From positions 1 to 20,970 of IMG/VR virus record IMGVR_UViG_3300008261_000215: a stretch of DNA of 20,970 bases. One strand, written 5' to 3'. The notes beneath the pieces were generated by a model that worked only from the letters and a program-made list of their open reading frames with translations, was not told the origin of the DNA and searched no databases. How positions within the stretch are numbered: the first letter of the stretch is position 1; every line of letters begins with the position of its first letter. Made by a program: the position numbers and the translations under genes. This DNA is from a virus. Of the stretch, positions 1,149 through 19,229 are shown piece after piece.

Positions 1149-1156
1149 TATAAATA
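1149..1156 (-). promoter_or_regulatory. TATTTATA box before the 1141 minus-strand gene
   Basis: Read on the minus strand this is GATATTTATAG, ending 7 bases before the ATG at 1141. It is one of five copies of the octamer located 3-16 bases upstream of virion genes. The same bases read on the plus strand give TATAAATA, the T4 late-promoter core, 41 bases before the ATG at 1198, so the direction of action in this divergent gap is ambiguous. Function is inferred from recurrence only. Confidence 0.45.
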
Positions 1157-1173
1157 TCTTTCCTTTCTTTTGA

Positions 1174-1181
1174 TATTTATA
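1174..1181 (+). promoter_or_regulatory. TATTTATA box before the 1198 gene
   Basis: The plus strand reads TTGATATTTATATTAAAAAG, with the octamer ending 16 bases before the ATG at 1198. It mirrors the box at 1149-1156, so the 56-base divergent gap holds one copy per direction. Candidate late-gene signal, by recurrence at five genes. Confidence 0.45.
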
Positions 1182-1197
1182 TTAAAAAGATAATTGC

Positions 1198-1959
1198 ATG
1201 GATAAATATGTTAAAAATATAATTGAAGAGACATTTGCGTCCAAAAAACAACAAAGATATTTCTACGCGAAAGCAAACGATAAGTCAATCCCAAAGAAAG
1301 AAAGAAAAAAATGGTCAAAGTGGGCCAAAGAATATTCTGATGATACCGACTTTGAGAAAATTCCAGAAAAGGTTGAAACTGAGGTAGATGAAATTGTTGA
1401 TGAAAAAGGTAACGTAGCAAGAAGAAAAATTCCAATTTCTAAAGCAAGTAAAGGTGGTTCTCACGCAATAACCGATAAAGTTGTCAAAACAGGTTTTGGT
1501 CAAATGGGTACACATGGTATTGCTCATGGGACAAATACAACCATAAAATATTGGACGGAGTCTGATTTAAGTAAAGCTTTAGGTTATGAAAAAACTTTAG
1601 GTCAGGACGAAGACATTGAAGGTGCTTATGAATATTTTGAAGACGATTTAGGTATGAGTGATGATGAGAGCAAAGAAAGATTATCTTCCTATGGTTATGA
1701 TGAAAAATTAAAAGGAGACAAGGTCAGACTTATTGAAAATCCTAAAAAATTTGTAAATGATTATGTTGAAAGTGTTCTTAATAAAAAATCTAACAGTAGT
1801 GATTTAGTAAAAAAAGACCAAACAGAAGATATTGAAACAGAATTAAGTCCAATTATTAAAAGACAGGTTATGTCTTTAAAAAATACTTTAGTAAAAAATA
1901 ACGTATCTGTTGAAGATGTAATTAATATCCTTAAAAAGGAAGAAGATTCCGATGAATAA
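1198..1959 (+). CDS. Conserved phage protein with SKKQQRYFYAKA motif
   Basis: 253 residues, highly charged, with no signal peptide or membrane segment. Residues 15-26 read SKKQQRYFYAKA, followed by a basic run and WSKWAKEYSDDTDF. From memory, this SKxQQRfFyAKA...AKEfSDkT pattern recurs at the N-termini of many environmental T4-like phage proteins of unknown function. The middle (about 84-120) is Gly/His/Thr-rich (TGFGQMGTHGIAHGTN), the next part is acidic, and the C-terminal 40 residues look helical (SPIIKRQVMSLKNTL...). It opens a four-gene run and overlaps the next gene by 8 bases, so the two are probably translationally coupled. A TATTTATA box precedes it. A virion or head-assembly role is possible from context, but the function is not recognised. 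Confidence 0.8.
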   Translation: MDKYVKNIIEETFASKKQQRYFYAKANDKSIPKKERKKWSKWAKEYSDDTDFEKIPEKVETEVDEIVDEKGNVARRKIPISKASKGGSHAITDKVVKTGFGQMGTHGIAHGTNTTIKYWTESDLSKALGYEKTLGQDEDIEGAYEYFEDDLGMSDDESKERLSSYGYDEKLKGDKVRLIENPKKFVNDYVESVLNKKSNSSDLVKKDQTEDIETELSPIIKRQVMSLKNTLVKNNVSVEDVINILKKEEDSDE

Positions 1960-2449
1960 AGAATTAAAAGGTAGAATTTTTGATATCCCGCAAGATATTT
2001 TAGACAAGATAAACCACACTGTAGTTGGTTTAAACGGTGAAAATGTGCGAGGTATTGAAAGAGCTAAAAAACTTTTAATTGATAAAAAAGTAAAATACGG
2101 TCAACTTAAAAGAATTATCCATGACATCCAAAATATGGATAAAATGCAAGAAAAAACTAAGTACGACTTATGTGGCGGAGACCTCATGGAAAAATGGGCT
2201 AAACAATTTTTACAAGGAGAAAGAGATTTAGTAAGTAATAGAAAAGACTCCAAAAAAAGAGCCGATGAGATTACGTCAATGACAGGGGAAAGAAAAAACA
2301 GTCATTTAAAATCACACAAAAAAAGATTTAGTTTTAAAATTCCAACAAATTTGATTAAGAGTAATTCTCATAAGACGAGTGTATCTCCACTTACATCAAT
2401 GAAATTATTTGAAGAAATAGATAAAATAAAAAAATTAATTAGTTACTAA
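1952..2449 (+). CDS. Conserved hypothetical phage protein
   Basis: 165 residues, basic and largely helical. The N-terminal half reads FDIPQDILDKINHTV, then GIERAKKLL and KYGQLKRIIHDIQNMDK. It continues with GGDLMEKWAKQFLQGERDLV and a Lys/Arg/Ser-rich middle, and ends EEIDKIKKLISY. The last twelve residues closely resemble the end of the protein at 3116-3970 (EQLKRIKTLIFF). It starts inside the upstream gene (8-base overlap) and ends 1 base before the next start, so it is part of one transcription unit. I do not recognise an enzymatic motif. The block layout recalls conserved hypothetical proteins of environmental T4-like phages, but no function can be given. Confidence 0.8.
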   Translation: MNKELKGRIFDIPQDILDKINHTVVGLNGENVRGIERAKKLLIDKKVKYGQLKRIIHDIQNMDKMQEKTKYDLCGGDLMEKWAKQFLQGERDLVSNRKDSKKRADEITSMTGERKNSHLKSHKKRFSFKIPTNLIKSNSHKTSVSPLTSMKLFEEIDKIKKLISY

Positions 2450-2450
2450 T

Positions 2451-3970: not shown

Positions 3971-3997
3971 AAATACTTATTTTATAAAAAAATCAAT

Positions 3998-4579
3998 ATG
4001 GAAAAAACAGGACAAGGGGTGATATCACAAAATGACCTAATGCAAAGACTAGTACAAGCCAAAAAAATATTGAACAAAGTTGAAACTGGAGACTTTGAAA
4101 CTGGCCATGTAAACGAAGAAATATTAAGAAGTAACCCTGAAGATGTATTATCATCATCAAATCAAAATCCACAAATTAGACAACCACAACAACCTAATTT
4201 GCAAAAAATACAAGAATCCAAATTACCTGAAGCAATCAAAAGAGCGATGATTGAAAATCCGATACCTCAAATTAGTTTATCAGATTCTTTAGATTTAAAC
4301 TTTGTTGAAAAAACAAAAAAACTAATGGAATCTGAAGGTGTCGCCACAAAAAAATCTACACAACAAAGGAGTTCACAAGTGGATAGTTCAGATTTAGTTA
4401 AACAACTTACACCAATAATTGAAAACATTGTAAGAAAGACTGTAGTCGAAATTATGGATTCCAAACTCAATCAAATTTTAACGGCACAACAAACCATGAG
4501 TATCAATGAAAATTTGGTATTAAAGGTTGGTGATTCTGTTTTTAAAGGTAAAATTACTGGCGTAAATAAATCTAAGTAA
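3998..4579 (+). CDS. Hypothetical phage protein with helical region and small C-terminal beta domain
   Basis: 193 residues. The N-terminus is helical (NDLMQRLVQAKKILNKVE), followed by a Gln/Asn/Pro-rich low-complexity stretch (about 50-75). A second helical zone (DLVKQLTPIIENIVRKTVVE, about 129-148) could mediate oligomerisation. The last 30 residues, ENLVLKVGDSVFKGKITGV, look like a small beta unit. There are no catalytic motifs. It stands alone, with 27 bases before it and 51 after it. The upstream gap contains CTTATTTTATAAAAA (3976-3990), AT-rich and promoter-like. The order helix, linker, helix, small barrel would suit a scaffold or assembly factor, but that is inference and I do not recognise the family. 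Confidence 0.75.
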   Translation: MEKTGQGVISQNDLMQRLVQAKKILNKVETGDFETGHVNEEILRSNPEDVLSSSNQNPQIRQPQQPNLQKIQESKLPEAIKRAMIENPIPQISLSDSLDLNFVEKTKKLMESEGVATKKSTQQRSSQVDSSDLVKQLTPIIENIVRKTVVEIMDSKLNQILTAQQTMSINENLVLKVGDSVFKGKITGVNKSK

Positions 4580-4581
4580 GT

Positions 4582-4609
4582 TTGACTTTTCAATTTTTTT
4601 TCTTATAAT
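4582..4609 (+). promoter_or_regulatory. Candidate sigma70-like promoter
   Basis: TTGACT at 4582-4587, a 16-base T-rich spacer, and TATAAT at 4604-4609, which is a near-consensus host vegetative promoter. It lies in the 51-base gap before the glycosyltransferase start at 4631, giving a leader of about 15 bases. The preceding T also makes TTTG, the Bacteroidota -33 element. It is the best host-type promoter seen in the window and may drive the 4631-11442 run before late transcription. Confidence 0.5.
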
Positions 4610-4630
4610 TTATAAAAAGGAAAAATTTGA

Positions 4631-5851
4631 ATGTCAAAAATTAGAATTTTAGCAATACCCCCCGATACACATGGTGTGGGTAAATATAGAATATTAGACC
4701 CATATAAATTTATTGGAGACCATTATGCCGACGAATTTCATGTCGACATTGCATTATCTGTTGAAAACAGTGATAATTTTTTTAAGAACTACGATATTGT
4801 AGTATTCCATAGTTTTATCCATCAAACAAGTCACGAAGAAAATATTTCAAGAATTAAGTGGTTAAAATCCCAAGGTATTAAAATCGTAATGGATATTGAT
4901 GACCATTGGTCTCCCGACCATAGACACCCAATGTATTTTCACATTAGAGAAAACGAGTTACCGAAGAAAAAAGCCGACATGATGAAAGAGTCGGACTACG
5001 TTACGTGTACGACCGAATATTTTGCTGAAACTTTAAGAAAAAGATTAAATTTAAAAAATGTTTTAGTATTCCCCAATGCAATTGACCCGAATGAAAGTCA
5101 ATTCCAACCTAAACCCACAGAGTCAGATAGACTTAGATTTGGGTGGCTTGGAGGTTCAACTCACTTACATGATTTAGAACAAATTAGAGGTGGAATTTCA
5201 ATGATTGCTAATCAATACGATAATATTCAATTTGTTTTGTGTGGTTACGATTTAAGGGGTTCAATCACGGAAGTAAATCCACAAACAGGCGAAAGAAAAA
5301 CAAGACAAATTCAACCCACCGAAACGGTTTGGTACAAATACGAACAAATATTTACGGACAATTACAAAACAGTTGACCCCGAGTATAAATCATATTTAAT
5401 GAATTTTACACAAACACCAGAAATTGACGTTAGTGATAAAAAATATAGAAGAGTTTGGACACAACCAATTGGTAGATATGGTTCTAATTATAACTTATTT
5501 GATGTATCTTTAGCACCAATCATACCATCAGAATTCAATTCCTGTAAATCACAATTAAAAATAATTGAGGCGGGCTTCCATAAAAAACCTATCATTGCAA
5601 GTGAAACAATGCCGTATACAATTGATTTAAAAACTGCATACAAAGAAGGTAAGTTATTAGATGACGGTAATGCTTTATTAGTACATGAAAACAAAAACCA
5701 TAAACTGTGGTCAAAGTATATGAAATTATTAATAGACAATCCAAATATGGTTGAAGACTTGGGTAATAGATTATACGAAACAGTGAAAGACAAATACTCT
5801 TTAGTAACAGTTTCAAAAAACAGAACAGAATTTTTCAAATCAATAATTTAA
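4631..5851 (+). CDS. GT-B glycosyltransferase, GT4-like
   Basis: 406 residues with the two-domain layout of GT-B enzymes. The N-terminal domain opens with IRILAIPPDTHGVGKYRI and contains YDIVVFHSF and KIVMDIDDHW. The link to the second domain runs through LVFPNAIDP and RFGWLGGSTHLHDL, the usual start of the donor-binding half. Near residue 313 the sequence IIEAGFHKKPIIASE matches the E-rich donor-sugar loop typical of GT4 enzymes. The C-terminus is helical. It would transfer a sugar from a nucleotide donor to an unidentified acceptor in the host cytoplasm. A sigma70-like promoter lies just upstream, with a weak AAGGA before the ATG. Two further glycosyltransferases follow at 8891 and 9961, suggesting a virion- or DNA-decorating set. 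The fold is fairly sure; donor and acceptor are unknown. Confidence 0.85.
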   Translation: MSKIRILAIPPDTHGVGKYRILDPYKFIGDHYADEFHVDIALSVENSDNFFKNYDIVVFHSFIHQTSHEENISRIKWLKSQGIKIVMDIDDHWSPDHRHPMYFHIRENELPKKKADMMKESDYVTCTTEYFAETLRKRLNLKNVLVFPNAIDPNESQFQPKPTESDRLRFGWLGGSTHLHDLEQIRGGISMIANQYDNIQFVLCGYDLRGSITEVNPQTGERKTRQIQPTETVWYKYEQIFTDNYKTVDPEYKSYLMNFTQTPEIDVSDKKYRRVWTQPIGRYGSNYNLFDVSLAPIIPSEFNSCKSQLKIIEAGFHKKPIIASETMPYTIDLKTAYKEGKLLDDGNALLVHENKNHKLWSKYMKLLIDNPNMVEDLGNRLYETVKDKYSLVTVSKNRTEFFKSII

Positions 5852-5863
5852 AAACAAAAAACC

Positions 5864-6097
5864 ATGCATTATTTAGTAACAGTAGGTTATGAAACCGAAA
5901 ATTTAGACAGAAACGGTAATCCAAGATTACAAAAAGTTAAGTACATTGTAGAAGCTGAGTCGGTTGAAGAAGCGACTTTGGTTGTTTCAAAGTACAGAGC
6001 CGGAGACATGAGGTCTTCAGAAAGTTTGGCGATTGTAAAGATGCCAATCGAATGTATTATTGACCCACAAAATACTCCTGAGTACTTTAAAAAATAA
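5864..6097 (+). CDS. Small conserved protein, possibly DUF4494-like
   Basis: 77 residues: MHYLVTVGYETENLDRNGNP, then QKVKYIVEAESVEEATLVV, then a C-terminal strand with IECIIDP. The pattern beta strand, loop, beta strand ending YIVEAESVEEA, and a helix recalls DUF4494, a small family common in Bacteroidota and their phages (pattern memory, low certainty). It has no catalytic motif and no export signal. It lies 12 bases after the glycosyltransferase and 5 bases before the HD-like gene, so it is very likely co-transcribed with both. Confidence 0.7.
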   Translation: MHYLVTVGYETENLDRNGNPRLQKVKYIVEAESVEEATLVVSKYRAGDMRSSESLAIVKMPIECIIDPQNTPEYFKK

Positions 6098-6102
6098 TTA
6101 AA

Positions 6103-6669
6103 ATGTTAACCGCAGAACAAATAGAGTCAAACAAGAAAAAGTTTCTTGAAACGAACTCAAAATATAAAATTTTTACAGAAGAGTTGTTAGACTTTTTGGG
6201 TAATGACTTTTTTTTAGCACCAGCATCCACATCTTTAGACATGTATGGGTGTTTTCCGGGTGGTCTATTAAGTCATTGTTTTAAAGCTGCGAAGTATTCG
6301 GTTAAAACCAATGAACTACTCCCTGAAACAATGAGGGTAGAAACTTCTTCTATTTTGAAGTGTATATTTTTATCACAGATTGGTAAAACTTTTATGTTTA
6401 AACCAAACCCAAGTGAATGGCATAGAAAAAACCTTGGTAAAATGTACGAATTCAATGAACAAGAAGTTTCAATGAAATCAGGAGAACGAGCAGTATATTA
6501 TGCGGTAAACAATGGAGTAAAATTATCAGAAGATGAATTTCAATCAATTATGAATTCAGATAAAGAATCTGATGATAAAATGGCGAAATATCGTTCGGGT
6601 ACTTTATCCAACGTAATAAGAATCGGTTTTGAACTATCAATCATAGAAGAAAAAAATGGACAAAAATGA
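6103..6669 (+). CDS. HD-superfamily-like protein lacking the HD dyad
   Basis: 188 residues. FFLAPASTSLDMYGCFPGG followed by LLSHCFKAAKYSVKTNELLP (about 37-74) matches the start of YhaM-type HD phosphohydrolases, in which a GGLL-x-H helix carries the first metal-binding His (H58). The position where the family has H-D-L-G-K reads S91-Q92-I-G-K here, so the defining His-Asp pair is gone. A later EWHRKNLGKMYEF (about 105-117) and MKSGERAVYYAVNNGVKLSEDE preserve the rest of the fold. It may be a non-catalytic binding protein. The stop overlaps the dUTPase start by 14 bases, so translation is probably coupled. The fold call is moderate. Confidence 0.75.
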   Translation: MLTAEQIESNKKKFLETNSKYKIFTEELLDFLGNDFFLAPASTSLDMYGCFPGGLLSHCFKAAKYSVKTNELLPETMRVETSSILKCIFLSQIGKTFMFKPNPSEWHRKNLGKMYEFNEQEVSMKSGERAVYYAVNNGVKLSEDEFQSIMNSDKESDDKMAKYRSGTLSNVIRIGFELSIIEEKNGQK

Positions 6670-7261
6670 AATTGAGTCGTATATCAAACGACTACAAGAA
6701 TTAGAAAAAGAAATCCTTAGTGATAATTCTGACGACACATCAATTATGGGAGATTTAAATAATTTATTATTTAATCTCGGTGATGATATTAAAAATCAAG
6801 TTGAGGAACAGGTTAATCGTTTTGAAGTTAAAGTTAAAAGATTACATCCGAAAGCGGTAATTCCCAAATACGCAAAAGATGGGGACGCTGGTATGGATTT
6901 GGTTGCAACAGAAATAATTTCAAATACCACATTTGATGTTACTTATGGTACAGGAATCGCCATGGAAATACCAAAAGGATACGTTGGTTTAGTTTTTCCT
7001 CGCTCTTCTATTAGAAAAACCGATTTATCACTTACAAATTGTGTTGGGGTTATTGACAGTGGATATAGAGGTGAAATCCAAGCAACATTTAAAAAAGTCT
7101 TTGGTAAAAACGATGTCAGATTAGATGAATTAGATTATAAAGTGGGTGATAGAATTGCTCAAATAATGATAATACCTTATCCTTCTGTAACCTTTGTAGA
7201 GGTGGACGAATTGTCTCAAACAGATAGGGGTGAAGGTGGATTTGGTTCTACAGGTTCATAA
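6656..7261 (+). CDS. dut: dUTP diphosphatase with N-terminal extension
   Basis: 201 residues. It hydrolyses dUTP to dUMP and diphosphate, lowering uracil misincorporation and feeding dTMP synthesis. All five motifs of the trimeric dUTPase family are present: I DAGMDL (77-82), II PRSS (115-118), III GVIDSGYRGEI (131-141), IV GDRIAQIMI (164-172), and V RGEGGFGSTG (191-200), with the catalytic-site Asp in motif III intact. The usual family length is about 150 residues. Here an extra N-terminal ~55 residues (IKRLQELEKEILSD...NNLLFNLGDDIKNQVEEQ) form a charged, probably coiled-coil extension before FEVKVKRL. The start at 6656 lies within the upstream gene and is the only ATG giving the full frame. 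The dCMP deaminase at 18427 acts in the same dUMP-supplying pathway. Confidence 0.95.
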   Translation: MDKNEIESYIKRLQELEKEILSDNSDDTSIMGDLNNLLFNLGDDIKNQVEEQVNRFEVKVKRLHPKAVIPKYAKDGDAGMDLVATEIISNTTFDVTYGTGIAMEIPKGYVGLVFPRSSIRKTDLSLTNCVGVIDSGYRGEIQATFKKVFGKNDVRLDELDYKVGDRIAQIMIIPYPSVTFVEVDELSQTDRGEGGFGSTGS

Positions 7262-7287
7262 TAATTATATTAATAAAAAACACTCAA

Positions 7288-8004
7288 TTGAGAAAATCAA
7301 CAACAAAAACCGTAAATCTTGTAGAAGATAAAAAAACACCTAAAAAAGATAGAATTAGGCAAATAATAAAACAACCTAAAGAAAAATTTCTAACCAAGAA
7401 TCAAGAAGACTATTGGAGAACTTTAGGTGAAAACGAAATAACACTTTGTTTTGGTCCTGCTGGTGTTGGTAAATCATATATTGCAATGAAAAGGGCTGTT
7501 GATTTACTTTGGGACGACAGTAATAAATACGAAAAAATTATCATTGTTAGACCAGCGGTTGAAGCTGAGGAAAAATTAGGTTCACTACCCGGTGGATTAG
7601 AAGAAAAACTTGACCCATACATCTATCCTTCATATTATTTACTAAATAAAATAATTGGTAAAGATGCTAGAGAAAAATTAAAGGATGAAGGATTTATTGA
7701 AATTGCCGCATTGGCTTATATGAGAGGTTGGAATGTTGACAACACAATTTTAGTATTCGAAGAAGCTCAAAACACAACCCCGTCACAAATGAAACTTTTA
7801 TTGACCCGTATTGGGTTCAATTCAAAGTTTTTTATTTCAGGAGATTTAGAACAATCAGACAAATTTAAAGACAAAACAAAAACCGGATTATACGACGCAA
7901 AAGTAAGACTTGGTGATTTAAAAAATGTCGGTGTATTTGAATTTGGTAATGAGGATATTGTTAGAAATCCAATCATCACTCAAATCTTAAAAAGGTACGA
8001 TTAA
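7288..8004 (+). CDS. phoH: PhoH-like ATPase
   Basis: 238 residues. Walker A is GPAGVGKS (56-63). Walker B is ILVFEEAQN (154-162), with the EEAQN form typical of PhoH proteins. IIIVRPAVEAEEKLGSLPGG (85-104) and FFISGDLEQSD (181-191, sensor-like) complete the PhoH domain, which covers nearly the whole protein after a basic 35-residue N-terminus. No ATG is available before Walker A, and the frame opens with TTG at 7288, 26 bases after the dUTPase stop, so I use this alternative start. PhoH ATPases are common in marine and T4-like phages. A role in RNA metabolism or phosphate stress is proposed for the family but unproven in phages. It lies in the enzyme run with dUTPase upstream. Confidence 0.92.
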   Translation: MRKSTTKTVNLVEDKKTPKKDRIRQIIKQPKEKFLTKNQEDYWRTLGENEITLCFGPAGVGKSYIAMKRAVDLLWDDSNKYEKIIIVRPAVEAEEKLGSLPGGLEEKLDPYIYPSYYLLNKIIGKDAREKLKDEGFIEIAALAYMRGWNVDNTILVFEEAQNTTPSQMKLLLTRIGFNSKFFISGDLEQSDKFKDKTKTGLYDAKVRLGDLKNVGVFEFGNEDIVRNPIITQILKRYD

Positions 8005-8041
8005 ACTTTACTTATAATATTTTATCTATTATATTTCCTAT

Positions 8042-8722
8042 ATGGAAATATTTGTTAGTATTGATGGTGTTTTAAGAAACACGATACAGAAATTTGATTA
8101 CCATTATAAAGATTATTTCTTAAACACTGAAACAGACGAAGAAGAAAAGTTTGATTATGGTGTAAATGGTGTACCAATATCTATTGAAAATTTGTTAAGT
8201 ACCTACAAGTTTCAATCAATCGATGAATTTAATAAATTTTTATATTTCGATTTCCCAATTGAAATATATGGACACGCCGGTTTAAGTTATAATCAAGCCG
8301 CCACTGAATTAAACACATTCATTTTTGAAAACAAAAATGCTAAAATAACTTTAGTTGGTTTAAGTGAAAAAGGTAAAGCAAAACCTGCCACACTTTTCTT
8401 TCTTTCAAAAAACGGTATTATGGCTGATAATATCGTTTTTTCAACGCCTGATGAGATAAAAAAATTATGGAAAAAATGTGATTTATGGATAACAGATGAT
8501 ATAAATGTTGTTTCACAATGTCCAATACACAAAAAGGTTATAAAATTTAATACCTTTTATAATAATAACTTTACAAATAAACTACAAATAAATAAATTAT
8601 CAGAAATAAATAAAACATGGTTGAAATTTTCGGTAAAAACTATTATATCGATGTTGATGGAATCAGTAACAAATGTCAAACGGGTAATCAAATCCAAAAT
8701 GAAGACGGAACCACAACATTAG
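8042..8722 (+). CDS. HAD-like protein with degenerate motif I
   Basis: 226 residues. IFVSIDGVLRN at the N-terminus matches HAD motif I (DxDGVLRN) except that the nucleophile Asp is Ser (S6), while the second Asp (D8) is kept. ITLVGLSEKGKAKPATLFFL (102-121) fits motif II (S/T) and a following Lys-containing helix, and LWITDDINVV (148-157) fits the motif IV acidic pair. The layout resembles phage 5'-nucleotidase or phosphatase-like HAD proteins, but loss of the nucleophile argues against normal phosphatase chemistry. The last ~35 residues overlap the next gene in another frame (106 bases), so the C-terminus is either an overprinted tail or a frameshift product. CTTATAATATTTTAT at 8011-8025 lies upstream. 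Confidence 0.7.
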   Translation: MEIFVSIDGVLRNTIQKFDYHYKDYFLNTETDEEEKFDYGVNGVPISIENLLSTYKFQSIDEFNKFLYFDFPIEIYGHAGLSYNQAATELNTFIFENKNAKITLVGLSEKGKAKPATLFFLSKNGIMADNIVFSTPDEIKKLWKKCDLWITDDINVVSQCPIHKKVIKFNTFYNNNFTNKLQINKLSEINKTWLKFSVKTIISMLMESVTNVKRVIKSKMKTEPQH

Positions 8723-8898
8723 AAATAAACCTATTCAAATATGAGATTATCAAAACTTGTATTGAAAGAATACTAAATGAGTTTGAAGAAGTGGATGAAG
8801 GATTAGGTGAATTCGGTGAAAACGGTTTATCAATATCTTTTAAAATTGCTTTTAACACACTAATAAAATATGACATATTAATATCAGAAGATGAATAA
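8617..8898 (+). CDS. Small conserved phage protein
   Basis: 93 residues, acidic: MVEIFGKNYYIDVDGISNKC, a short linker, LEINLFKYEIIKTCIERIL, an acidic loop with DEGLGEFGENG, and LSISFKIAFNTLIKYDIL. From memory, short proteins with this opening and a final SFKIAFNTLxKY.IL recur in environmental T4-like phages, always of unknown function. The start lies 106 bases inside the preceding HAD-like gene. I keep 8617 because MVEIFGKNYYIDVD is a coherent N-terminus and no later ATG would keep it. It overlaps the next gene by 8 bases. Confidence 0.75.
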   Translation: MVEIFGKNYYIDVDGISNKCQTGNQIQNEDGTTTLEINLFKYEIIKTCIERILNEFEEVDEGLGEFGENGLSISFKIAFNTLIKYDILISEDE

Positions 8899-9964: not shown

Positions 9965-10740
9965 AAGACATATCAATAATTTTACCCATTCATAAATGGG
10001 ACGAGGAATATGAAACAATGTTTAAAAACGCATTCAGTTCAGTTGAACAATTTTATAACGATGTGAAATTGTTGATTGTTGGACCATCAAGTGTCGTTTC
10101 AAAAATAAACATTGAACAATCTAATTTAGAATATAAAATAATCGAAAACAGTGGAGAACATGATTTTTGTTCACAAATTAATCTTGGTATCACAAATTGT
10201 GACACAGAGTGGTTTTCAATTTTGGAAGTTGATGATGAGTACCACAAAAACTGGTTAACATTAGTAAACTCATACAGAAATGAAAACCCTGAAGTCGGTG
10301 CCTTTTTAAGTTTAGTAAAAGATATCAATGTTGAAGGTAAATTTTTAAGTTACACCAATGAATCGACTTGGGCTTACGGATTCACAGATAAACAGGGATT
10401 CTTAGATAATGAAGCCTTATTAGAATATCAAAACTTTCAAATTAATGGTGGTCTATACAAAACTTCTGTTATAACGGAGTATGGTAAATTAAAATCAAAT
10501 ATTAAACTAACGTTTGGTTATGAATTTTTATTAAGATTAACACATAACAATGTTATTGTGATGACGATTCCAAGATTAGGATACCAACACGTAAACTTTA
10601 GAGAGGATTCTTTATTTTGGAATTATAAAAATTCAGAGAAAATGAGACTCTCACAAGAAGAGGTTAAATTTTGGTTAGACACTGCAAAAAAAGAGTTTTT
10701 CTTTAAAAATAACAGAGACATAAACTATGTAGAAAATTAA
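9961..10740 (+). CDS. GT2-like family glycosyltransferase (GT-A fold)
   Basis: 259 residues. DISIILPIHKWDEEYETMF is the classic opening of GT2 enzymes. FCSQINLGITNCDTEWFSIL followed by EVDDEYHKNW (about 90-99) carries the Asp-Asp metal and donor site (DxD equivalent). NFQINGGLYKTSVI resembles the acceptor-side segment. No membrane helix is present, so it is a soluble enzyme. It is translationally coupled to the GT-B enzyme (ATGA overlap) and lies 3 bases before the sigma factor gene. Pairing of a GT-B and a GT2 enzyme suggests sequential addition of sugars, which is inference. The fold call is fairly sure; the substrate is unknown. Confidence 0.82.
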   Translation: MKDISIILPIHKWDEEYETMFKNAFSSVEQFYNDVKLLIVGPSSVVSKINIEQSNLEYKIIENSGEHDFCSQINLGITNCDTEWFSILEVDDEYHKNWLTLVNSYRNENPEVGAFLSLVKDINVEGKFLSYTNESTWAYGFTDKQGFLDNEALLEYQNFQINGGLYKTSVITEYGKLKSNIKLTFGYEFLLRLTHNNVIVMTIPRLGYQHVNFREDSLFWNYKNSEKMRLSQEEVKFWLDTAKKEFFFKNNRDINYVEN

Positions 10741-10743
10741 TAT

Positions 10744-11442
10744 ATGCCGCGTAAACGAACCCAAAAAATATATTTTGGGGAGGAGCAAGAACAAGCGGTT
10801 GTAAGATACCTAGAATCCGAATCCGATACAGAAAAGAATAAGATATTCAACGAATATTTAAGAGAACCTCTCACAATAATGGTCGAAAGTATAATTCGAC
10901 GTTATAAATTGTATAGAAAAGACTTTGAATTTGTGGACATACACGCAGATACAATGTCGTTTCTTATGACAAAAATTAACAAATTCGACCACACCAAAAA
11001 CCATAAAGCTTATTCTTATTTTGGGACCATCTGTAAAAATTATTTGATGGGTGCTATTCAAAAAGACACTAAGGAAATGAATCGAAGTGTCTCATATGAT
11101 GACATATCATCTGATTTAGAAGAAAGTGCGGAACACTCATACTCAATTGATGAATATCATATTGATTATAAAGATGTTATAATAAAATTTATAATTGAAT
11201 TGGAAACTTTTATGGAGGTCGAAGAGTTGAATGATAATGAACAAAAATTAGGATATGCATTGATTGAGATTTTTAGCAACTTTGAAAAAATATTTCAAGT
11301 GGGTGAGGGAAATAAATTCAATAAAAATTTAATTCTTTTGTCACTAAGAGAAATGACTTCATTATCCACAAAAGAAATTAGACTTTCTTTAAAGAGATAT
11401 AAAAAAGTTTACGAAGGAATCATGGTAGGATTCATAAATTAA
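10744..11442 (+). CDS. Late-transcription sigma factor, gp55-like
   Basis: 232 residues. T4 gp55 directs host RNA polymerase to late promoters together with gp33 and the sliding clamp. Here residues about 42-115 show the sigma region 2-like pattern: PLTIMVESIIRRYKLY, VDIHADTMSFLMTKINKFD, HKAYSYFGTICKNYLMGAIQ and the basic end KDTKEMNR. This matches the KFD...NAYAYFTTICKNAF..RIKKE type pattern of phage late sigmas. The remainder is acidic and helical, with no clear region 4, as expected for gp55. It is somewhat longer than T4 gp55 (185 residues). It is the last gene of the enzyme run, immediately before the virion genes, whose first start has a TATTTATA box. Assignment is from motif memory and fairly sure. 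Confidence 0.8.
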   Translation: MPRKRTQKIYFGEEQEQAVVRYLESESDTEKNKIFNEYLREPLTIMVESIIRRYKLYRKDFEFVDIHADTMSFLMTKINKFDHTKNHKAYSYFGTICKNYLMGAIQKDTKEMNRSVSYDDISSDLEESAEHSYSIDEYHIDYKDVIIKFIIELETFMEVEELNDNEQKLGYALIEIFSNFEKIFQVGEGNKFNKNLILLSLREMTSLSTKEIRLSLKRYKKVYEGIMVGFIN

Positions 11443-11451
11443 CTATTTCTC

Positions 11452-11459
11452 TATTTATA
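11452..11459 (+). promoter_or_regulatory. TATTTATA box before the 11464 virion run
   Basis: CTATTTATATATT ends just before ATG 11464, with the octamer 4 bases from the start codon. It separates the sigma gene from a run of virion genes (11464-15554). No gene on the minus strand could use this site in reverse, so if functional it acts on the plus strand. Recurrence-based call. Confidence 0.45.
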
Positions 11460-11463
11460 TATT

Positions 11464-11838
11464 ATGAGGGAAAAGAAAAACATAATATCATTAGACACCG
11501 ACTCAGCATTGGCATTAATGCAAGAAATCTACAATGATATTGTTGAACAGAAAAATACCGCGTCGATGATAACTAAAAAAATGTTAACATTTATGAAAGA
11601 CGCTGAAGACATGAGTGTTATTGGTCCCGTCATTAAAGAACAACAAAAAATACTAAACGATTGTACTGAAAAGAAGATTTCGTTAGTTAAACTCCAAGGT
11701 GCTTTATTAAAACAAACTCAAGGAAGTGGACCTAATTCAAGTGGAGGTAAATTACAACTTACTGATGAAGATAGGGTCATATTGGAAAAACTGATGAATG
11801 ATACTGAGGGAGAGTCGTCAGGAACATATAGAGACTAA
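11464..11838 (+). CDS. Hypothetical protein, helical
   Basis: 124 residues. Residues about 12-75 are almost entirely helical (DSALALMQEIYNDIVEQKN, then ITKKMLTFMKDAEDM and VIKEQQKILNDCTEKKISLV). A Gly/Ser-rich linker follows (about 85-95, QGSGPNSSGGK), then an acidic segment LTDEDRVILEKLM. No catalytic or DNA-binding motif is evident. It is the first gene of the virion run, with a TATTTATA box 4 bases before the start and TAATG coupling to the 652-residue protein. The size and helical layout could fit a small terminase subunit or an assembly chaperone, but I see nothing specific and do not assign one. Confidence 0.75.
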   Translation: MREKKNIISLDTDSALALMQEIYNDIVEQKNTASMITKKMLTFMKDAEDMSVIGPVIKEQQKILNDCTEKKISLVKLQGALLKQTQGSGPNSSGGKLQLTDEDRVILEKLMNDTEGESSGTYRD

Positions 11839-13796
11839 TGGCTAATTCAAAAGAACCCAAAAAAAAACTTCAAGCTTCGATTGAGGCGATAAAAAAAATT
11901 AATGACGACCCAAAAGGTTCATTGGGTTCTGTTGCTGACTCTTATCAAAAAAACATACCGGACCCAAACGAGTTATTTTCTAAAAAAAGTGCGGACTTAA
12001 AAAACAAATTAAAATCCAAGGTAGAAAATAATAAAGACATCTTTAAAGAATTGTTAGAAATTACAGAACAATTTATTACCAGTAACAAAAAAACAAAAAC
12101 CGATACTACACCAACAAAAAGTGACAGTGTACCTGTCAACGTTGATAAGAATCTTGTAAAAGGAAAAATAAAACGTTATGCGGTTTCTTCCGCAAAAACA
12201 ACTTTACAATCTGCAAAACAAATAGCAATTAAACACTTTTCTGAAGCTCTTTTTATGGGTGATGGAATTTGTGGCAGTCAGTCTGTTTTTAACATAGATT
12301 CAATAGTTTTAAAACCCGATGAATTTGACTTTTTAGATATTTTTACAATTGACCCCGATTCAGATTGTGGTCAATTAATTTATGAGAAAAAGTCACCGGA
12401 TAAAAACAAACAAAAGGCGAATAGAAAATTTTATGATTTAATGTCTTCAGGAGGTTTATACACTTACTCATCAAACAATGGTAAAAACCTATTTAGTACT
12501 CAATGGAGTGCTTCAACACAACAATTTTTAATCACAGGATTAACTCAAGGTACAACGGGTACAACCAAAGTACAAGACTTCATCAAAGATTATTATGAGT
12601 CTTTGGAATTTCCTGATATTGAAGATATTATGAAGACCGCTATGATGTTAACTATACAAGGTGGTTCAAGTTGTAGTGACTCAAGTAAATTTACTGTATC
12701 ATTAAATAAATCTCTAAGACTAATTGATAAATTATTCAAAGTGTGTGGTTCAAATACTCAAAAAGATGAGTTAAAGAATCAGACACCGGTTGATATGTTT
12801 AGTGAAAACGACCAAGATATTGAATTTTATTTTGATTTCGACGATGTAGAAGGTATTGACTTAGATGACGAACAAAATAGATTTAAAAGAGTATTAAGGT
12901 TTAAAGACTGTTATAATTTTGAAATTCCTGTGGATGATATGCACGTGGAAGATTTCATTTACTTAACAAACAATCAGAGTGTAGATAAAGCGGTTGATAA
13001 AACTTTAGAAAATTTATCCAAAGACGCTTTATCACAATCTGATTCTTCTTTTGATATTAGTGCATTTTTAAATAACCTATTAAACAATTTTATTATAAGT
13101 TTACCGAAGGCTTTGGTAATGTCAATTTTATCGGCTAAAATATTTTTACCAATTATAGTATTGTATAAAATATTTAAAACCGGATTGACTAATGTGTATT
13201 TAAATAGTAAAGAACTAGCCAAGAAATTCTACAAAGCTATAGGTGCAATAATTAAAGATTTATTTTGGTTATTTATAAGAGAATTTTGGAGATTGATAAA
13301 AGTAGATTTATTGGCTTTTATTCAAAGTATTGTACAAAGAATTATTAAAAATAAGTATAAAAGATATCTACTAATTATTACATCATTAATTGCGTTATTG
13401 AGAAAAGCTTTAGAAACAGAAATTAATAATTGTTATGACTTGTTTCAAACAATTTTGTCAACAATTGAAGCTGCGTTATCACAAAAAGCACCAATAACAA
13501 TACCGTCAATTCTTTTATTATTCTCAGATTCATTACCCGGATTTAGTCAAGACAGGGCGTTTATGAACATTATGAATAAACTAGAAGCTGCGGGAGTACC
13601 AACAGGGCCACTATATGGTGAATCAAATGACATAGGTAATTTGGTAAAATCTGTTGTTGATGGGTACACCGAAGAAGAAGACGCTAATTCATTTGTAAAA
13701 ATTGTATTAAAAGGTGGGACGTTACCCGGACCGCCACTTGCAGGGGGGGCGGTAATACCACCTGGTTTTATAACGGGCGTAGGTAAAAAACAATAA
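11838..13796 (+). CDS. Large virion protein with hydrophobic helical block
   Basis: 652 residues. The N-terminal 110 are charged and low-complexity (Lys/Asp/Ser/Thr). Residues about 110-410 form a mixed domain with scattered Cys. Residues about 412-525 are strongly hydrophobic and helical, with LPKALVMSILSAKIFLPIIV, DLFWLFIREFWRLIKVDLL and YLLIITSLIALLRKAL, interrupted by Lys/Arg. The C-terminus contains a Gly/Pro-rich tail (GGTLPGPPLAGGAVIPPGF). No signal peptide is present. It lies two genes before the OB-fold hub protein, so a tail or baseplate component is likely. The helical block could contact membrane during infection or form a helical bundle. Identity is not certain. Confidence 0.8.
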   Translation: MANSKEPKKKLQASIEAIKKINDDPKGSLGSVADSYQKNIPDPNELFSKKSADLKNKLKSKVENNKDIFKELLEITEQFITSNKKTKTDTTPTKSDSVPVNVDKNLVKGKIKRYAVSSAKTTLQSAKQIAIKHFSEALFMGDGICGSQSVFNIDSIVLKPDEFDFLDIFTIDPDSDCGQLIYEKKSPDKNKQKANRKFYDLMSSGGLYTYSSNNGKNLFSTQWSASTQQFLITGLTQGTTGTTKVQDFIKDYYESLEFPDIEDIMKTAMMLTIQGGSSCSDSSKFTVSLNKSLRLIDKLFKVCGSNTQKDELKNQTPVDMFSENDQDIEFYFDFDDVEGIDLDDEQNRFKRVLRFKDCYNFEIPVDDMHVEDFIYLTNNQSVDKAVDKTLENLSKDALSQSDSSFDISAFLNNLLNNFIISLPKALVMSILSAKIFLPIIVLYKIFKTGLTNVYLNSKELAKKFYKAIGAIIKDLFWLFIREFWRLIKVDLLAFIQSIVQRIIKNKYKRYLLIITSLIALLRKALETEINNCYDLFQTILSTIEAALSQKAPITIPSILLLFSDSLPGFSQDRAFMNIMNKLEAAGVPTGPLYGESNDIGNLVKSVVDGYTEEEDANSFVKIVLKGGTLPGPPLAGGAVIPPGFITGVGKKQ

Positions 13797-13797
13797 T

Positions 13798-13995
13798 ATG
13801 AATATTGAAAAATTACAAAACATTGTAGAAAATGCTAAAGATAAATCAAATAAAGATTTATTTGATGCTGAGGAGTTTCTTTTTAAACAACACGAGGAAT
13901 TAAAATTATACATCGTTGAATTGACAAAAAAATTAGAGTTTATTGAGAATCTACATGAAACGATAACAACAGAGATTGAAAATAGAAAAATATAA
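13798..13995 (+). CDS. Small coiled-coil protein
   Basis: 65 residues, almost wholly helical with heptad-like spacing: IEKLQNIVENAKDKSNK, then ELKLYIVELTKKLEFIENL, ending in TTEIENRKI. It starts 1 base after the stop of the large virion protein, and its TAA overlaps the ATG of the hub-like gene (TAATG), so it is tightly coupled to both. It may be a small structural or assembly partner of the tail. No family is recognised. Confidence 0.75.
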   Translation: MNIEKLQNIVENAKDKSNKDLFDAEEFLFKQHEELKLYIVELTKKLEFIENLHETITTEIENRKI

Positions 13996-15554
13996 TGAAA
14001 ATAGTTGACATTGGTGTTTGTTTAGATAATAACGACCCTAAAGGGTTAGGTAGAATTCGTGTAGTTGATTATGATGATTATATTGGTGGTAAATCAAACA
14101 TTAAAGAGGGTATACAACATTGGAGTAAGGATGACCCTTTTGTTGCTGCACCATTTTTACCTAACAACATAAATTTTATACCTGAATTTAAACAAGCGGT
14201 AAAAATAATTCGTTATGATACGAATAAAACAACAGTAAACCAAGAATACATCGCTGGACCATTCTCAACAAGGTACGATTTTAATTCTCAAGAATTTAAC
14301 ACCCAAATATCTTTAACATCATATGGTGTATCTGTGGAGGATAAAGTGGATATTATAAAAAATGAAGAAGGTACACTACCCGAAAATTGTAAAAATGCAT
14401 TATCAAAATATAAAGACTACTCTGTTGGTGGAAAATACGGCTCTGATGCTCTATTCACACAAGACGGATTAGTGTTAAGAGGTGGTAAATTAGTTCAAAA
14501 GGATGTTACCAGTGACCAAAACAGAGAACTCCTAACAAAAGGATTTCCGATTGTTTCCGATAAAGTTGCAAAACTTCATTTAAAAAAATTCGGACCAAAA
14601 CAATTTGTAACAGAAGAGACAAAAAAAGAAAGTATCACTGAAAATTCAAATTTAAAATTCATAATAGAATACGATGTTGATAATCTTTCAAATCCAAACT
14701 ATGTAAATTTTTATTTGTACCAAATAAAACCAAATGTAACAAAAAAGTACAATTCAAGTAACTTTACTGAATCAACACAAATATTGGCTGGTGAATCCGT
14801 ATTTTTATACGAGTCGGGTAACACATATACTTTTAGAAGTGAGTTAAACACAATAACAGATTATAGTGGGTCAACATTAACAAATAAAATAAAATTAATT
14901 TACCAAGAAATTAGAAACAAATTAACTCAAATTCAAAGTAATGGATTTAATGGTATTGTTTCATTTAAAATTTTGACTGATTTAATAGTTACACAATCAG
15001 ATTCTAACATCTATCCGTTTTTTTATAGACCAACAAGTGAATTTGAAAACCGAAGTGTTACTACAACAGAACAATCTGATAGATTAACGTTATTTAATAA
15101 CATTAAATTACCGGGTTCAACATCTAAATCTAGTTTGGTTTATAGTAAAGACAAAGTAAATCCTAACACAAGAACAGTAGACAGAACGGTAAAAGTTTTA
15201 AAAACAGATACCACGTCTTTTGAACAAACTTTTGGAAATATAACCGCGGATAAAATTTATTTACTTTCAACGGATACCAATTTTACTGATAAGAAAATTG
15301 ATTTCCCTGTTTTAAACACTTATGAATATGAACAGTCTGATTATATTGAAAAGATAGAACCAAACACATATTCTTTAGTTAGAGGTGAAATACTATTAGA
15401 TTTTATTGACGCTCTTTACAATGTTTTAACTGGTCATGTTCACAATATCAATAAAGAGTATGTTAAAAATGGATACTCTGACCACGCAAAATTGGAAATA
15501 CTATATAATAAATTAAGGGATGAGTTAACAAATAAATCTATTAAAATCAACTAA
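13995..15554 (+). CDS. Baseplate hub-like protein with N-terminal OB fold
   Basis: 519 residues. The N-terminus reads VDIGVCLDNNDPKGLGRIRV, then WSKDDPFVAAPFLPNNINFI, EFKQAVKIIRYDT and EYIAGPF. This is the order of an OB-fold in the N-terminal domain of T4 gp5-type hub proteins: DPxxLGRIRV, DDPFVAAPFLP and a second strand-loop unit. Residues 110-460 are Ser/Thr/Asn-rich and beta-like, without a recognisable lysozyme motif. The C-terminal part (RGEILLDFIDALYNVLTGHV, near 467-486) is helical with HNINKEYVKNGYSDHAKLE. It would sit at the tail tip, connecting tube and spike. It is coupled to the coiled-coil gene by TAATG. The OB-fold call is fairly sure; the equation with gp5 is inference. Confidence 0.72.
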   Translation: MKIVDIGVCLDNNDPKGLGRIRVVDYDDYIGGKSNIKEGIQHWSKDDPFVAAPFLPNNINFIPEFKQAVKIIRYDTNKTTVNQEYIAGPFSTRYDFNSQEFNTQISLTSYGVSVEDKVDIIKNEEGTLPENCKNALSKYKDYSVGGKYGSDALFTQDGLVLRGGKLVQKDVTSDQNRELLTKGFPIVSDKVAKLHLKKFGPKQFVTEETKKESITENSNLKFIIEYDVDNLSNPNYVNFYLYQIKPNVTKKYNSSNFTESTQILAGESVFLYESGNTYTFRSELNTITDYSGSTLTNKIKLIYQEIRNKLTQIQSNGFNGIVSFKILTDLIVTQSDSNIYPFFYRPTSEFENRSVTTTEQSDRLTLFNNIKLPGSTSKSSLVYSKDKVNPNTRTVDRTVKVLKTDTTSFEQTFGNITADKIYLLSTDTNFTDKKIDFPVLNTYEYEQSDYIEKIEPNTYSLVRGEILLDFIDALYNVLTGHVHNINKEYVKNGYSDHAKLEILYNKLRDELTNKSIKIN

Positions 15555-15559
15555 AACGA

Positions 15560-15567
15560 TATTTATA
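15560..15567 (+). promoter_or_regulatory. TATTTATA box before the 15579 gene
   Basis: The gap after the hub-like gene reads CGATATTTATACTATAAAAG, then GAATG. The octamer ends 11 bases before ATG 15579. An AAAGGA lies immediately against the start codon, too close for normal Shine-Dalgarno spacing. Third plus-strand copy of the element. Confidence 0.45.
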
Positions 15568-15578
15568 CTATAAAAGGA

Positions 15579-16952
15579 ATGTCGTACTATCGCTCATATT
15601 TTTCAAAGAACAATACTATCATAGAAAATAGTAGGGTCAACACCGCAAAAAATCCAACAACTGAGATTTATTATGGGGATGGGTTTTCCAGATTCATATT
15701 TAAAGTTGATTTTACAGATTTACAAAGTAAAATATCTAATGGTGATTTAGTTATCACCACAGGAACTACTCATCATCTTAAAATGACTAACACGGTCGTT
15801 GGTGACCCTAAATTAATAGGGGACAGTAAATCTAACGGAAAAGACCGTGCAACTTCTTTTGATTTAATATTATTTTCTATACCACAATCTTGGGATGAGG
15901 GTGTTGGATACGATTACGAATTCACAACATATGACGATAGTTTAGGAAACAAATTGTACGATACAAGACCATCTAATTGGTACGACAGGACAACCACTTC
16001 AGGATGGACGTATCCGGGTATTTATACAGGTGCAACCGTCTTAAGTACAATCCATTTTAATAATGGTAATGAAGACATTGACGTTGATATCACGAATTAT
16101 GTAAATGGTATTATTGTATCAGGAAACACCGACCACGGATTGGGTTTAGCATTTACATCAGCTTACGAAACAATCACGACTGGTGAAACACAACAATCTG
16201 TTGCATTCTTCTCAAAATATACACAAACTTTTTTTGAACCATTTGTTGAATCAACTTTTGATGATAGAATTGATGATAACCGACACAATTTTATAGAAGA
16301 GAGGTACAATAACCTTTATTTGTATGTAACAAAAGGTTCTAATTATTACAATTTAACAAGCAACCCAACCGTTGACATTCTCAACTCAAGTAGTACCCCA
16401 ATTTCAGGTCTCACAGGTCTTACAACAACAAGAGTTAGAAAAGGGGTATACAAAGTTAGATTTGGATTGACAGGACAACTATGTGACGGTAAAAGATTTT
16501 TCTATGATAAATGGAAAGGACTATCAGTTGACGGTATATCCGTAAGTGACGTTACTCAAAAATTTGTACCAAAACCATACACATCAGGATATAGTATTGG
16601 TACGAACCCAACTGAAACTCAAAACTACAAAATTCAGTTCTCAGGCATAAAACAGAACGAAAAAATAATAAGAGGTGAATTAAAGAAAATTGTACTTTAT
16701 CTCAAATCTATTGAACAGTCAAAAACAATATTGTTTGATGAAGTTTATTACCGAATCTTTATAAAAGAAGGTAAAACAAATGTAATTGTTTACGATTGGA
16801 CAAAGGTTGATGTGACAAACGAAAACTCTTTCTATTTGGATACATCCTACATGATTCCAAGAGAATACTTTATGGAGTTTAAATCCAAGACATATACTGA
16901 GGAAATATTTTACAATGACTACGTGAAGTTTGAAATATTATCAGAGATTTAA
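15579..16952 (+). CDS. Virion structural protein, beta-rich
   Basis: 457 residues, Ser/Thr/Tyr/Asn-rich, mostly short strands and turns. The N-terminus reads MSYYRSYFSKNNTIIENSRV, followed by NPTTEIYYGDGFSRFIFKVD, then LILFSIPQSWDEGVGYDYEF (about 96-115) and IDVDITNYVNGII. This resembles the DNRLRE-like jelly-roll pattern in which an IFKVD strand precedes an SWDEG...W loop (inference). The second half contains a YLYVTKG...VYKVRFGL unit, Ig-like in feel, and a C-terminal domain ending EEIFYNDYVKFEILSEI. It has no membrane segment or catalytic motif. It has its own TATTTATA box and lies between the hub-like protein and the Cys-rich proteins. A tail or surface protein is likely. Confidence 0.75.
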   Translation: MSYYRSYFSKNNTIIENSRVNTAKNPTTEIYYGDGFSRFIFKVDFTDLQSKISNGDLVITTGTTHHLKMTNTVVGDPKLIGDSKSNGKDRATSFDLILFSIPQSWDEGVGYDYEFTTYDDSLGNKLYDTRPSNWYDRTTTSGWTYPGIYTGATVLSTIHFNNGNEDIDVDITNYVNGIIVSGNTDHGLGLAFTSAYETITTGETQQSVAFFSKYTQTFFEPFVESTFDDRIDDNRHNFIEERYNNLYLYVTKGSNYYNLTSNPTVDILNSSSTPISGLTGLTTTRVRKGVYKVRFGLTGQLCDGKRFFYDKWKGLSVDGISVSDVTQKFVPKPYTSGYSIGTNPTETQNYKIQFSGIKQNEKIIRGELKKIVLYLKSIEQSKTILFDEVYYRIFIKEGKTNVIVYDWTKVDVTNENSFYLDTSYMIPREYFMEFKSKTYTEEIFYNDYVKFEILSEI

Positions 16953-16955
16953 AAA

Positions 16956-16963
16956 TATTTATA
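16956..16963 (+). promoter_or_regulatory. TATTTATA box before the 16967 gene
   Basis: AAAATATTTATAACT directly precedes ATG 16967, with the octamer ending 3 bases upstream, the closest of the five copies. If this is a -10-like element, transcription would start at or inside the start codon (leaderless). If not, it may act as an AU-rich translation signal. Confidence 0.4.
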
Positions 16964-19221: not shown

Positions 19222-19229
19222 CAAATATA
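19222..19229 (-). promoter_or_regulatory. TAnnTTTG box (Bacteroidota-like -7 element)
   Basis: On the minus strand this reads TATATTTG, an exact match to the Bacteroidota -7 consensus TAnnTTTG, 4 bases before the ATG at 19217. The expected TTTG at -33 is only weakly present in the T-rich upstream. It sits just after the capsid-gene terminator, consistent with a new transcript for the SAP-like and dCMP deaminase pair. A single occurrence, so moderate to low confidence. Confidence 0.35.

Follow-up and report, generated by a model that had tools for sequence, protein, structure and literature searches.

Why does the same octamer stand immediately before some genes of a phage and not before others? 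The question is raised by a stretch of viral DNA of 20,970 nucleotides (nt) (IMG/VR record IMGVR_UViG_3300008261_000215, positions 1 to 20,970; hereafter, the window), in which TATTTATA precedes five gene starts and is absent upstream of every start within a run of enzyme genes at 3998-11442. Here, we report a computational analysis of this octamer in the window, in the genome that contains it and in related phages. TATTTATA is very probably the -10 element of late promoters that are read by the phage's own gp55-like sigma factor. Its placement, strand, gene class, conservation and near-exclusivity with host-type promoters, as well as the presence of the sigma gene, are directly computed.

The window contains exact TATTTATA at seven sites, five of which are sense-oriented and lie 3-16 nt upstream of starts:

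1149..1156, minus strand: putative late promoter -10-type element, 7 nt before the ATG at 1141 (minus)
1174..1181, plus strand: putative late promoter element, 16 nt before the ATG at 1198
11452..11459, plus strand: putative late promoter element of a candidate leaderless mRNA, 4 nt before the ATG at 11464
15560..15567, plus strand: putative late promoter element, 11 nt before the ATG at 15579
16956..16963, plus strand: putative late promoter element of a candidate leaderless mRNA, 3 nt before the ATG at 16967
13270..13277, plus strand: octamer within a gene, probably by chance
16019..16026, plus strand: octamer within a gene, probably by chance

A previous sequence-only reading of the window had given these positions, the gaps to the starts and the absence of the octamer before the enzyme-run starts, and all seven sites were re-found exactly as described. 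The enrichment that it claimed holds for placement, with five of the seven sites before starts (P ~3e-9 under uniform placement, which ignores the AT-richness of the gaps), and not for number, which is ordinary: 7 sites compared to 4.0 expected, a count reached by 11 of 100 dinucleotide shuffles. The octamers at 1149 and 1174 stand back to back, with 17 nt between them, at the divergent genes 1141 and 1198, and this arrangement recurs in the orthologues.

Placement, strand and conservation of the octamer

The window is a fragment that aligns to positions 51958-30966 of a 288-kb contig (IMGVR_UViG_3300027816_000051; G1) with 0 mismatches and one 23-bp gap at ~19730. Genes were called with a single script of our own, which places some starts wrongly (for example, the G4 sigma gene was called at 131 amino acids (aa)), in five jumbo phage genomes (G1, G4, G5, G10 and G11), in phage immuto and in T4. 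The latter, our sole control of the TATAAATA type, was covered as three joined pieces that amount to 146,904 of its 168,903 bases, with false genes possible at the joins.

The scan of the genome and its relatives by strand and gene class, which had been proposed as a check, yielded sense-upstream enrichment in G1, its four jumbo relatives and immuto. Sites of TATTTATA located sense-upstream within 60 nt of a start numbered 38/60 in G1, 43/64 in G4, 39/88 in G5, 42/79 in G10, 49/81 in G11 and 22/45 in immuto, against 1.8-3.4 per genome expected by length. The T4 late core, TATAAATA, was found sense-upstream at 6/60, 9/64, 14/88, 12/79 and 9/81 sites in the same five jumbo genomes, respectively, and at 6 in immuto; in the T4 control, the counts were 17/29 for TATAAATA and 5/29 for TATTTATA. 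Occurrences of TATAAATA are most common at divergent heads (26/230, compared to 24/1386 other genes), at which TATTTATA can be read in the direction of the partner gene. Among genes with a same-strand neighbor, the ratio of sense to antisense octamers was 23:1 in G1, 34:6 in G4, 29:9 in G5, 24:4 in G10, 34:3 in G11 and 22:6 in immuto. This strand specificity rules out an inverted T4 site, and the earlier proposal that the octamer is the T4 late core in reverse complement falls with it.

The same picture emerged on a broader sample of three sets, each of 80 IMG/VR loci, retrieved via the sigma factors of the window, G11 and immuto: the octamer precedes 151/1160, 122/1280 and 102/924 distinct starts (13.0, 9.5 and 11.0%), compared to 0.6-1.0% by chance, and TATAAATA precedes 72, 38 and 29 starts in these sets, in the same order. 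In five relatives, TATTTATA leads the 56 eight-mers composed of five T and three A in frequency within 45 nt of starts (194/1624 genes; median 23), followed by the overlapping ATATTTAT (189 genes). This permutation control, together with the conservation at orthologous starts described below, rules out chance occurrence in AT-rich spacers. In the huge phage LR756508, of which 100 of 484 kb were scanned, neither octamer is enriched.

The octamer is conserved before the orthologues of all five window genes. The motif [ACG]TATTTAT[AT] lies within 45 nt of the start in 30 of 31 orthologues of 1141 (exact octamer in 23), 34 of 34 of 1198 (30), 72 of 75 of 11464 (41), 77 of 79 of 15579 (50) and 23 of 33 of 16967 (16). 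The exact octamer is found before none of the enzyme-run orthologues of 3998 (0/13), 4631 (0/46), 6656 (0/47) and the sigma gene at 10744 (0/78), and before 11/41 of those of the PhoH gene at 7288; outside the enzyme run, it is absent from orthologues of 17398 (0/8), 18867 (0/36) and 19241 (0/6). The distance to the start is conserved as well. Counting distinct orthologues, and dropping those with no in-frame ATG within four codons or with less than 60 nt upstream, the element lies 4-7 nt before the ATG in 33/34 orthologues of 1141 (there as TATTTAT[A/T]), 13-19 nt in 37/37 of 1198, 3-6 nt in 76/83 of 11464, 10-19 nt in 83/88 of 15579 and 3-4 nt in 26/39 of 16967, with 2 further off and none found in 11. 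Third codon positions are the most variable from codon 2 onward, so that the window gene starts are probably real.

Gene classes, spacing and competing readings

The genes of the window that follow the octamer, and those that do not, are arranged as follows:

3998..11442, plus strand: enzyme run without the octamer before starts, including glycosyltransferase, dUTPase, PhoH and sigma genes
11464..15554, plus strand: run opened by the 11452 element, open reading frames (ORFs) of 124, 652, 65 and 519 aa, no PHROG match
15579..16952, plus strand: 457-aa ORF behind the 15560 element, with a weak match to immuto gp111
16967..18426, plus strand: run opened by the 16956 element, ORFs of 143 and 342 aa, PHROGs of unknown function

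The five genes behind the octamer had been described as virion-type, which family searches do not show: the products of 1141 and 1198 matched no Pfam or PHROG family, those of 11464 and 15579 matched no PHROG (in a PHROG scan only), the 16967 product matches a PHROG of unknown function, and PDB sequence searches with two window ORFs gave no match. The family profile of 15579 weakly matches immuto gp111 (E 4e-4), the gene of which adjoins the gp6 baseplate gene.

The link to virion genes emerges from whole genomes, and the proposed association with late genes is thereby upheld. Families were labeled via T4 and immuto in six genomes, the octamer was sought within 45 nt, and orthologues absent at E 1e-8 were dropped, leaving 72 virion, 69 enzyme and 13 lysis gene-genome cells. 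The exact octamer occurs in 24/72 virion versus 1/69 enzyme cells (Fisher 2e-7, with cells non-independent across genomes), a contrast that persists when [ACG]TATTTAT[AT] is added (34/72 versus 4/69) and when families are counted instead (9/12 virion versus 1/15 enzyme, p 7.5e-4); 4/13 lysis cells carry it. The terminase gene has the exact octamer in 4/6 genomes and TATTTATT in a fifth, and the octamer directly precedes the terminase, portal, sheath, tube, baseplate hub and tape measure genes of immuto. A scaffold-like gene carries it in 4/6 genomes and the capsid gene in 0/6. In immuto, the late motif is found before 17/54 virion-block genes compared to 14/155 outside the block, and a second motif with the core TATTTAGG, in many cases as TATATTTAGGTATCAATAA, precedes 0/54 virion-block genes and 13/155 others. 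At 22 kb and 60-77 kb of immuto (NC_055915), this strong, early-type motif is present with its TATTTAGG core, before several genes as TATATTTAGGTATCAATAATTAAAACA; the 13 genes behind it are mostly small and hypothetical.

We infer that the sigma factor reads the octamer, and likewise the start point, the timing and the leaderless state. Under this scheme, the -10-type core of the late promoters would be TATTTATA, more fully [A/C/G]TATTTAT[A/T], to which the gp55-like sigma factor, encoded at 10744-11442 in the enzyme run, would bring the host RNA polymerase with no need for a -35 element. The virion, packaging and lysis operons would thus be switched on after an early set that apparently relies on promoters of the host type (TTTG/TAnnTTTG). 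The predicted start point is 3-5 nt past the octamer, such that an ATG at 3-5 nt would yield a leaderless mRNA (5'-AUG), and the other sites would yield a short A-rich leader without a Shine-Dalgarno sequence.

The architecture of the sites fits a promoter. The degenerate motif is found before 81/230 divergent heads, in 111/332 same-strand gaps of 15-59 nt and in 103/489 larger gaps, and is rare at same-strand gaps of less than 15 nt (18/565). A site of RNA processing or decay at operon junctions would account for the location of octamers in intergenic gaps, but not for strand specificity or for presence at divergent heads, where there is no upstream gene on that strand, and is highly improbable. 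No -35 element was detected, as none of the 35 positions upstream of the octamer carries more than 0.6 bit of information, and T is avoided just 5' of near and far octamers (2% and 8%, compared to 52% at other sites).

Could the promoter instead be read by a primary or alternative sigma factor of the host, as a TAnnTTTG variant, with the phage sigma uninvolved? The sequence ATATTTATA is one base away from ATATTTGTA of the host-type class, and spacing to starts is similarly short. However, the octamer departs from the promoter of sigma ABfr (TTTG at -33 and TAnnTTTG at -7) both in its own sequence and in having no TTTG upstream, it shares a single gene with the bipartite host motif, and it precedes virion genes. 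Furthermore, it is also enriched in Microcystis phage Mel-JY01, the phage of a cyanobacterium, which encodes a relative of the window sigma: there, 8/36 octamers are sense-upstream, compared to 1.0 expected and to 2/36 for TATAAATA, in 100 of 190 kb covered as two joined pieces, with false genes possible at the joins. It is thus the phage sigma that the octamer tracks, and not the host phylum, and we regard reading by a host sigma as quite unlikely.

The spacing to start codons bears on translation. The 337 pooled distances from the five genomes comprise 105 at 2-6 nt, 14 at 7-10, 153 at 11-20 and 63 at 21-52, and genes whose octamer is no more than 6 nt away make up 17/52, 16/55, 19/57, 12/58 and 43/84 of the octamer genes in the jumbo phages and 4/28 in immuto. 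The distance mode is largely fixed gene by gene. The frequent proximity to the start, along with Shine-Dalgarno-like cores at or below the control-window level in all six Bacteroidota-type genomes (in G1, 13/296 starts compared to 22 in the control window), would be expected if UAUUUAUA in the mRNA recruited ribosomes in a host that does without Shine-Dalgarno pairing. Nevertheless, this AU-rich translation signal, raised in the sequence-only reading, is left unsupported: the motif is rare at same-strand gaps below 15 nt, where genes need translation equally, the distances have a broad second mode at 11-20 nt, and the 5' context is common to near and far sites. In Mel-JY01, 14 TATTTAT[A/T] sites were found upstream at 13-43 nt from the start, and for 12 of these the distance is 23 nt or more. 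Shine-Dalgarno-like cores are present there at 33/89 genes compared to 1 in the control window, and 9 of the 14 sites are accompanied by such a sequence (under a loose pattern). The octamer is thus distant where leaders hold a ribosome site and close where such sites are missing, which is the pattern expected of a promoter, and a translation signal is improbable.

From the geometry of the sites, the near class, about a third of the total, would make 5'-AUG leaderless mRNAs; the earlier suggestion of leaderless late mRNAs thus survives for a candidate subset, and the remaining sites have room for a short leader. A rather doubtful alternative is that the near sites are not leaderless promoters at all, with transcription starting further up and the octamer either arising by accident in AT-rich spacers or serving as an operator. 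In its favor, the T4 spacing does not fit sites at 3-4 nt, and the G4 portal gene has two copies of the octamer, at 24 and 3 nt. Against this stand the near distance, which is kept per gene across wide divergence, the trough at 7-10 nt, and the host promoter class, which shows the same 4-nt spike: among the bipartite host promoters, 10 lie at 4 nt and one each at 3 and 8, with the remainder from 15 nt, and many start points of the TTTG/TAnnTTTG element are 4-5 nt downstream (PMC6847099). The window contains a parallel from the host promoter class to this close, leaderless-position spacing:

19222..19229, minus strand: host-type TATATTTG, 4 nt before the ATG at 19217 (minus); G1 position 32742

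The candidate late sigma factor

The sigma gene lies at the end of the enzyme run:

10744..11442, plus strand: gp55-like late sigma factor, 232 aa, with sigma region 2 and an additional C-terminal helical domain

That a gp55-like sigma is encoded in this genome, as previously proposed, is borne out at the level of remote homology. The window protein matches phrog_234 (late sigma) at E 0.0036, as do 31/48 family members at E<=0.1 (best 3.4e-5); Sigma70_r2 is matched by 30/48 members at E<=1 (best 3.8e-5), with the window protein, at 17.6 bits, under the 24-bit cut-off; and, when 2032 proteins were searched, the family profile matched T4 gp55 at 8.6e-5. In the VIA comparison, the top row for the sigma model is T4 gp55 (7d7c_F; Z 10.6, root-mean-square deviation 4.4, 117 aligned), although matches of this size between helical proteins call for caution. 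The absence of the octamer before the sigma gene itself in all 78 orthologues is as expected if the protein is made ahead of the late genes. A scan of genome contigs for the sigma, with at least 592 pattern matches, found one relative, in a metagenome-assembled genome.

Compared to the T4 late promoter (TATAAATA, sigma gp55), the likeness extends to an 8-bp TATA-like element with no -35, located before virion genes, and a sigma of the gp55 family. TATTTATA is better read as TATAAATA with AA changed to TT at -10/-9 than as an inverted T4 site; it falls outside the T4 consensus, and we file it as a variant of the T4-type late promoter. The two systems also differ in spacing, with TATTTATA mostly 3-20 nt from the start and 13 of the 17 sites found in T4 at 21-29 nt, in gp33 and gp45, which were not identified in our searches, and in the extra C-terminal helical domain of the sigma. 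In T4, A-12 and A-8 are held in deep pockets of gp55 and A-9 in a shallow one, where A-12 stacks on Y97, A-9 contacts N13 and H95, and A-8 bonds T99 (PMC7892883). When TATTTATA is placed in the T4 register, A-12 and A-8 are kept and -10 and -9 are changed. A weak alignment (13.6 bits) pairs Y97 with Y92 (48/48), L54 with I50 (48/48) and F86 with F81 (at least 90%), and shows divergence at N13 (E13) and H95 (Y/F90). Judging from these residues, the sigma pockets may match the changed bases of TATTTATA, which is a suggestion and not a proof.

Among T4 relatives, the late consensus is highly similar in those examined, with the promoters of KVP40, 44RR and S-PM2 close to T4 and those of Aeh1 having a/gC at -13/-12 (PMC2988020). 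All share with our phages a single -10 element and a gp55 homologue, and Aeh1 shows that the element can drift; the central AA-to-TT change is not mentioned in the section of that paper on T4 relatives. Compared to the Bacteroidota primary promoter (sigma ABfr), which these phages also carry, upstream of a different set of genes and with similar spacing, including the 4-nt spike, the octamer has no TTTG at -33 and ends in ATA, not TTTG. Rhodothermus phage RM378 has a protein distantly similar to the Mel-JY01 sigma (E 2e-3, 17% of the query), and the k-mers TTATTTAA and TATTTAAA are found upstream of 26 and 24 of its 126 genes, respectively, compared to 1.3-1.5 expected. These are probably RM378's own phage promoter. 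They end in AA, not TA, and TATTTATA is upstream at 0/13 RM378 sites; they do have TATTTA in common with it, a hint of a broader family of TATTTA cores. Among the matches listed from the open-licence literature on phage promoters, late genes, RM378, immuto and Mel-JY01, there was no earlier account of a TATTTATA late element.

Residues 138-232 of the sigma form a conserved C-terminal helical domain of ~80 residues that is not present in T4 gp55. The T4 protein ends with SLDFLYEAND, a clamp-binding motif, at the place where the window sigma family runs on into this domain. The model of the domain is fair (predicted local distance difference test 85, predicted template modeling score 0.77); its best Foldseek match has E 1.6, and the VIA comparison reaches at most Z 6.1 (variant surface glycoprotein). 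We do not claim a natural fusion of gp55 with gp33 or sigma4: there is no clear fold match, gp33 and sigma4 do not figure among the structure matches listed for the domain, and hhalign against gp33 gives a probability of 3.8%. According to PMC2988020, no fused late sigma had been found.

Several results weigh against late promoters read by this sigma. With respect to gene class, 14 immuto genes outside the virion block follow the late motif; the octamer-bearing PhoH orthologues, with uncertain starts, have it within 45 nt; the G4 primase gene has it at 2 nt; and the major capsid gene has it in 0/6 genomes. When 20 of the 38 G1 genes led by the octamer were scanned against PHROGs, 15/20 were left without a family, and the best functions among these proteins were weak Rz-like and tape-measure matches (both E 0.0012). 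The label "late" rests on the annotated minority because many octamer genes have no known function. With respect to the sigma, the family assignment is remote: a PDB profile search retrieved gp55 only at E 0.35, ranked under unrelated chains, and Foldseek gave no match below 0.001, though most of the top rows were sigma factors. T99 is replaced by G/Q94 although A-8 is retained, so that the pocket argument is not fully consistent. As for the accessory proteins of T4 late transcription, no G1 family profile matches T4 gp33 at E<=1, and no clamp of the T4 type (PF02916 0/5, PF09116 0/5) or the bacterial type (PF02767 0/5) was found over the cut-off in the five genomes; the lone weak PF02916 match is in G011 (0.035), in a search whose sensitivity for distant clamps was not gauged. 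The gp33 protein is poorly conserved. Finally, the T4 spacing, with the start 6 nt after the octamer, would put the start of 3-4 nt sites inside the codon, so that the leaderless reading requires a shorter, host-like spacing. A at -3 is less frequent at near sites (30/97 versus 99/171); we dropped this loss as proof of leaderless mRNAs, given that it is confounded by composition beside the octamer.

Since the core element has changed and the sigma has diverged, gp55-type specificity can be tested in vitro with few residues and bases, and one cultured Flavobacterium system, immuto, is available for the clade. The distances, taken gene by gene, supply a ready-made collection of candidate leaderless mRNAs in phages whose hosts do not rely on Shine-Dalgarno sequences for translation, along with a simple aid for calling late genes in uncultured phage contigs. 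More speculatively, this far-T4 clade might have re-tuned its late sigma to TATTTATA, with the distance from promoter to start hard-wiring leaderless and short-leader classes gene by gene and the phage-encoded ribosomal protein bS21 tuning host ribosomes to such leaders, a combination that we consider unlikely as a whole.

The phage, its host and neighboring features

The G1 phage is T4-like, with terminase, portal, protease, capsid, sheath, tube, gp25 and DNA polymerase families matching those of T4. Its closest named isolates are Flavobacterium phage immuto and Microcystis phage Mel-JY01, and the clade has hundreds of IMG/VR relatives. Host-type promoters and starts without Shine-Dalgarno cores jointly indicate a Bacteroidota host. 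At ~212-236 kb, G1 carries a gene cluster without T4 or immuto matches and with host-type TTTG/TAnnTTTG promoters, which are presumably early genes.

In the window, the capsid gene (19296-20970, minus strand) is broken into two frames, near the 23-bp gap at ~19730; since G1 is otherwise identical, the split is attributed to a probable assembly error. A 221-aa ORF at 2451-3116 consists of repeated units (SDGDE..G.GE...) offset by 141 bp (~47 residues), the copies of which cross-align between the window and G1.

A gene for ribosomal protein bS21 is present in 5/5 jumbo genomes searched, and in Mel-JY01:

G1, 28096-28296: bS21
G4, 280773: bS21
G5, ~17211: bS21
G10, 54199: bS21
G11, 108711: bS21
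Mel-JY01, 22183-22410: bS21

In G1, G4, G5 and G11, this gene is close to head genes and oriented against its neighbors; in Mel-JY01, it adjoins the prohead protease gene on the same strand.

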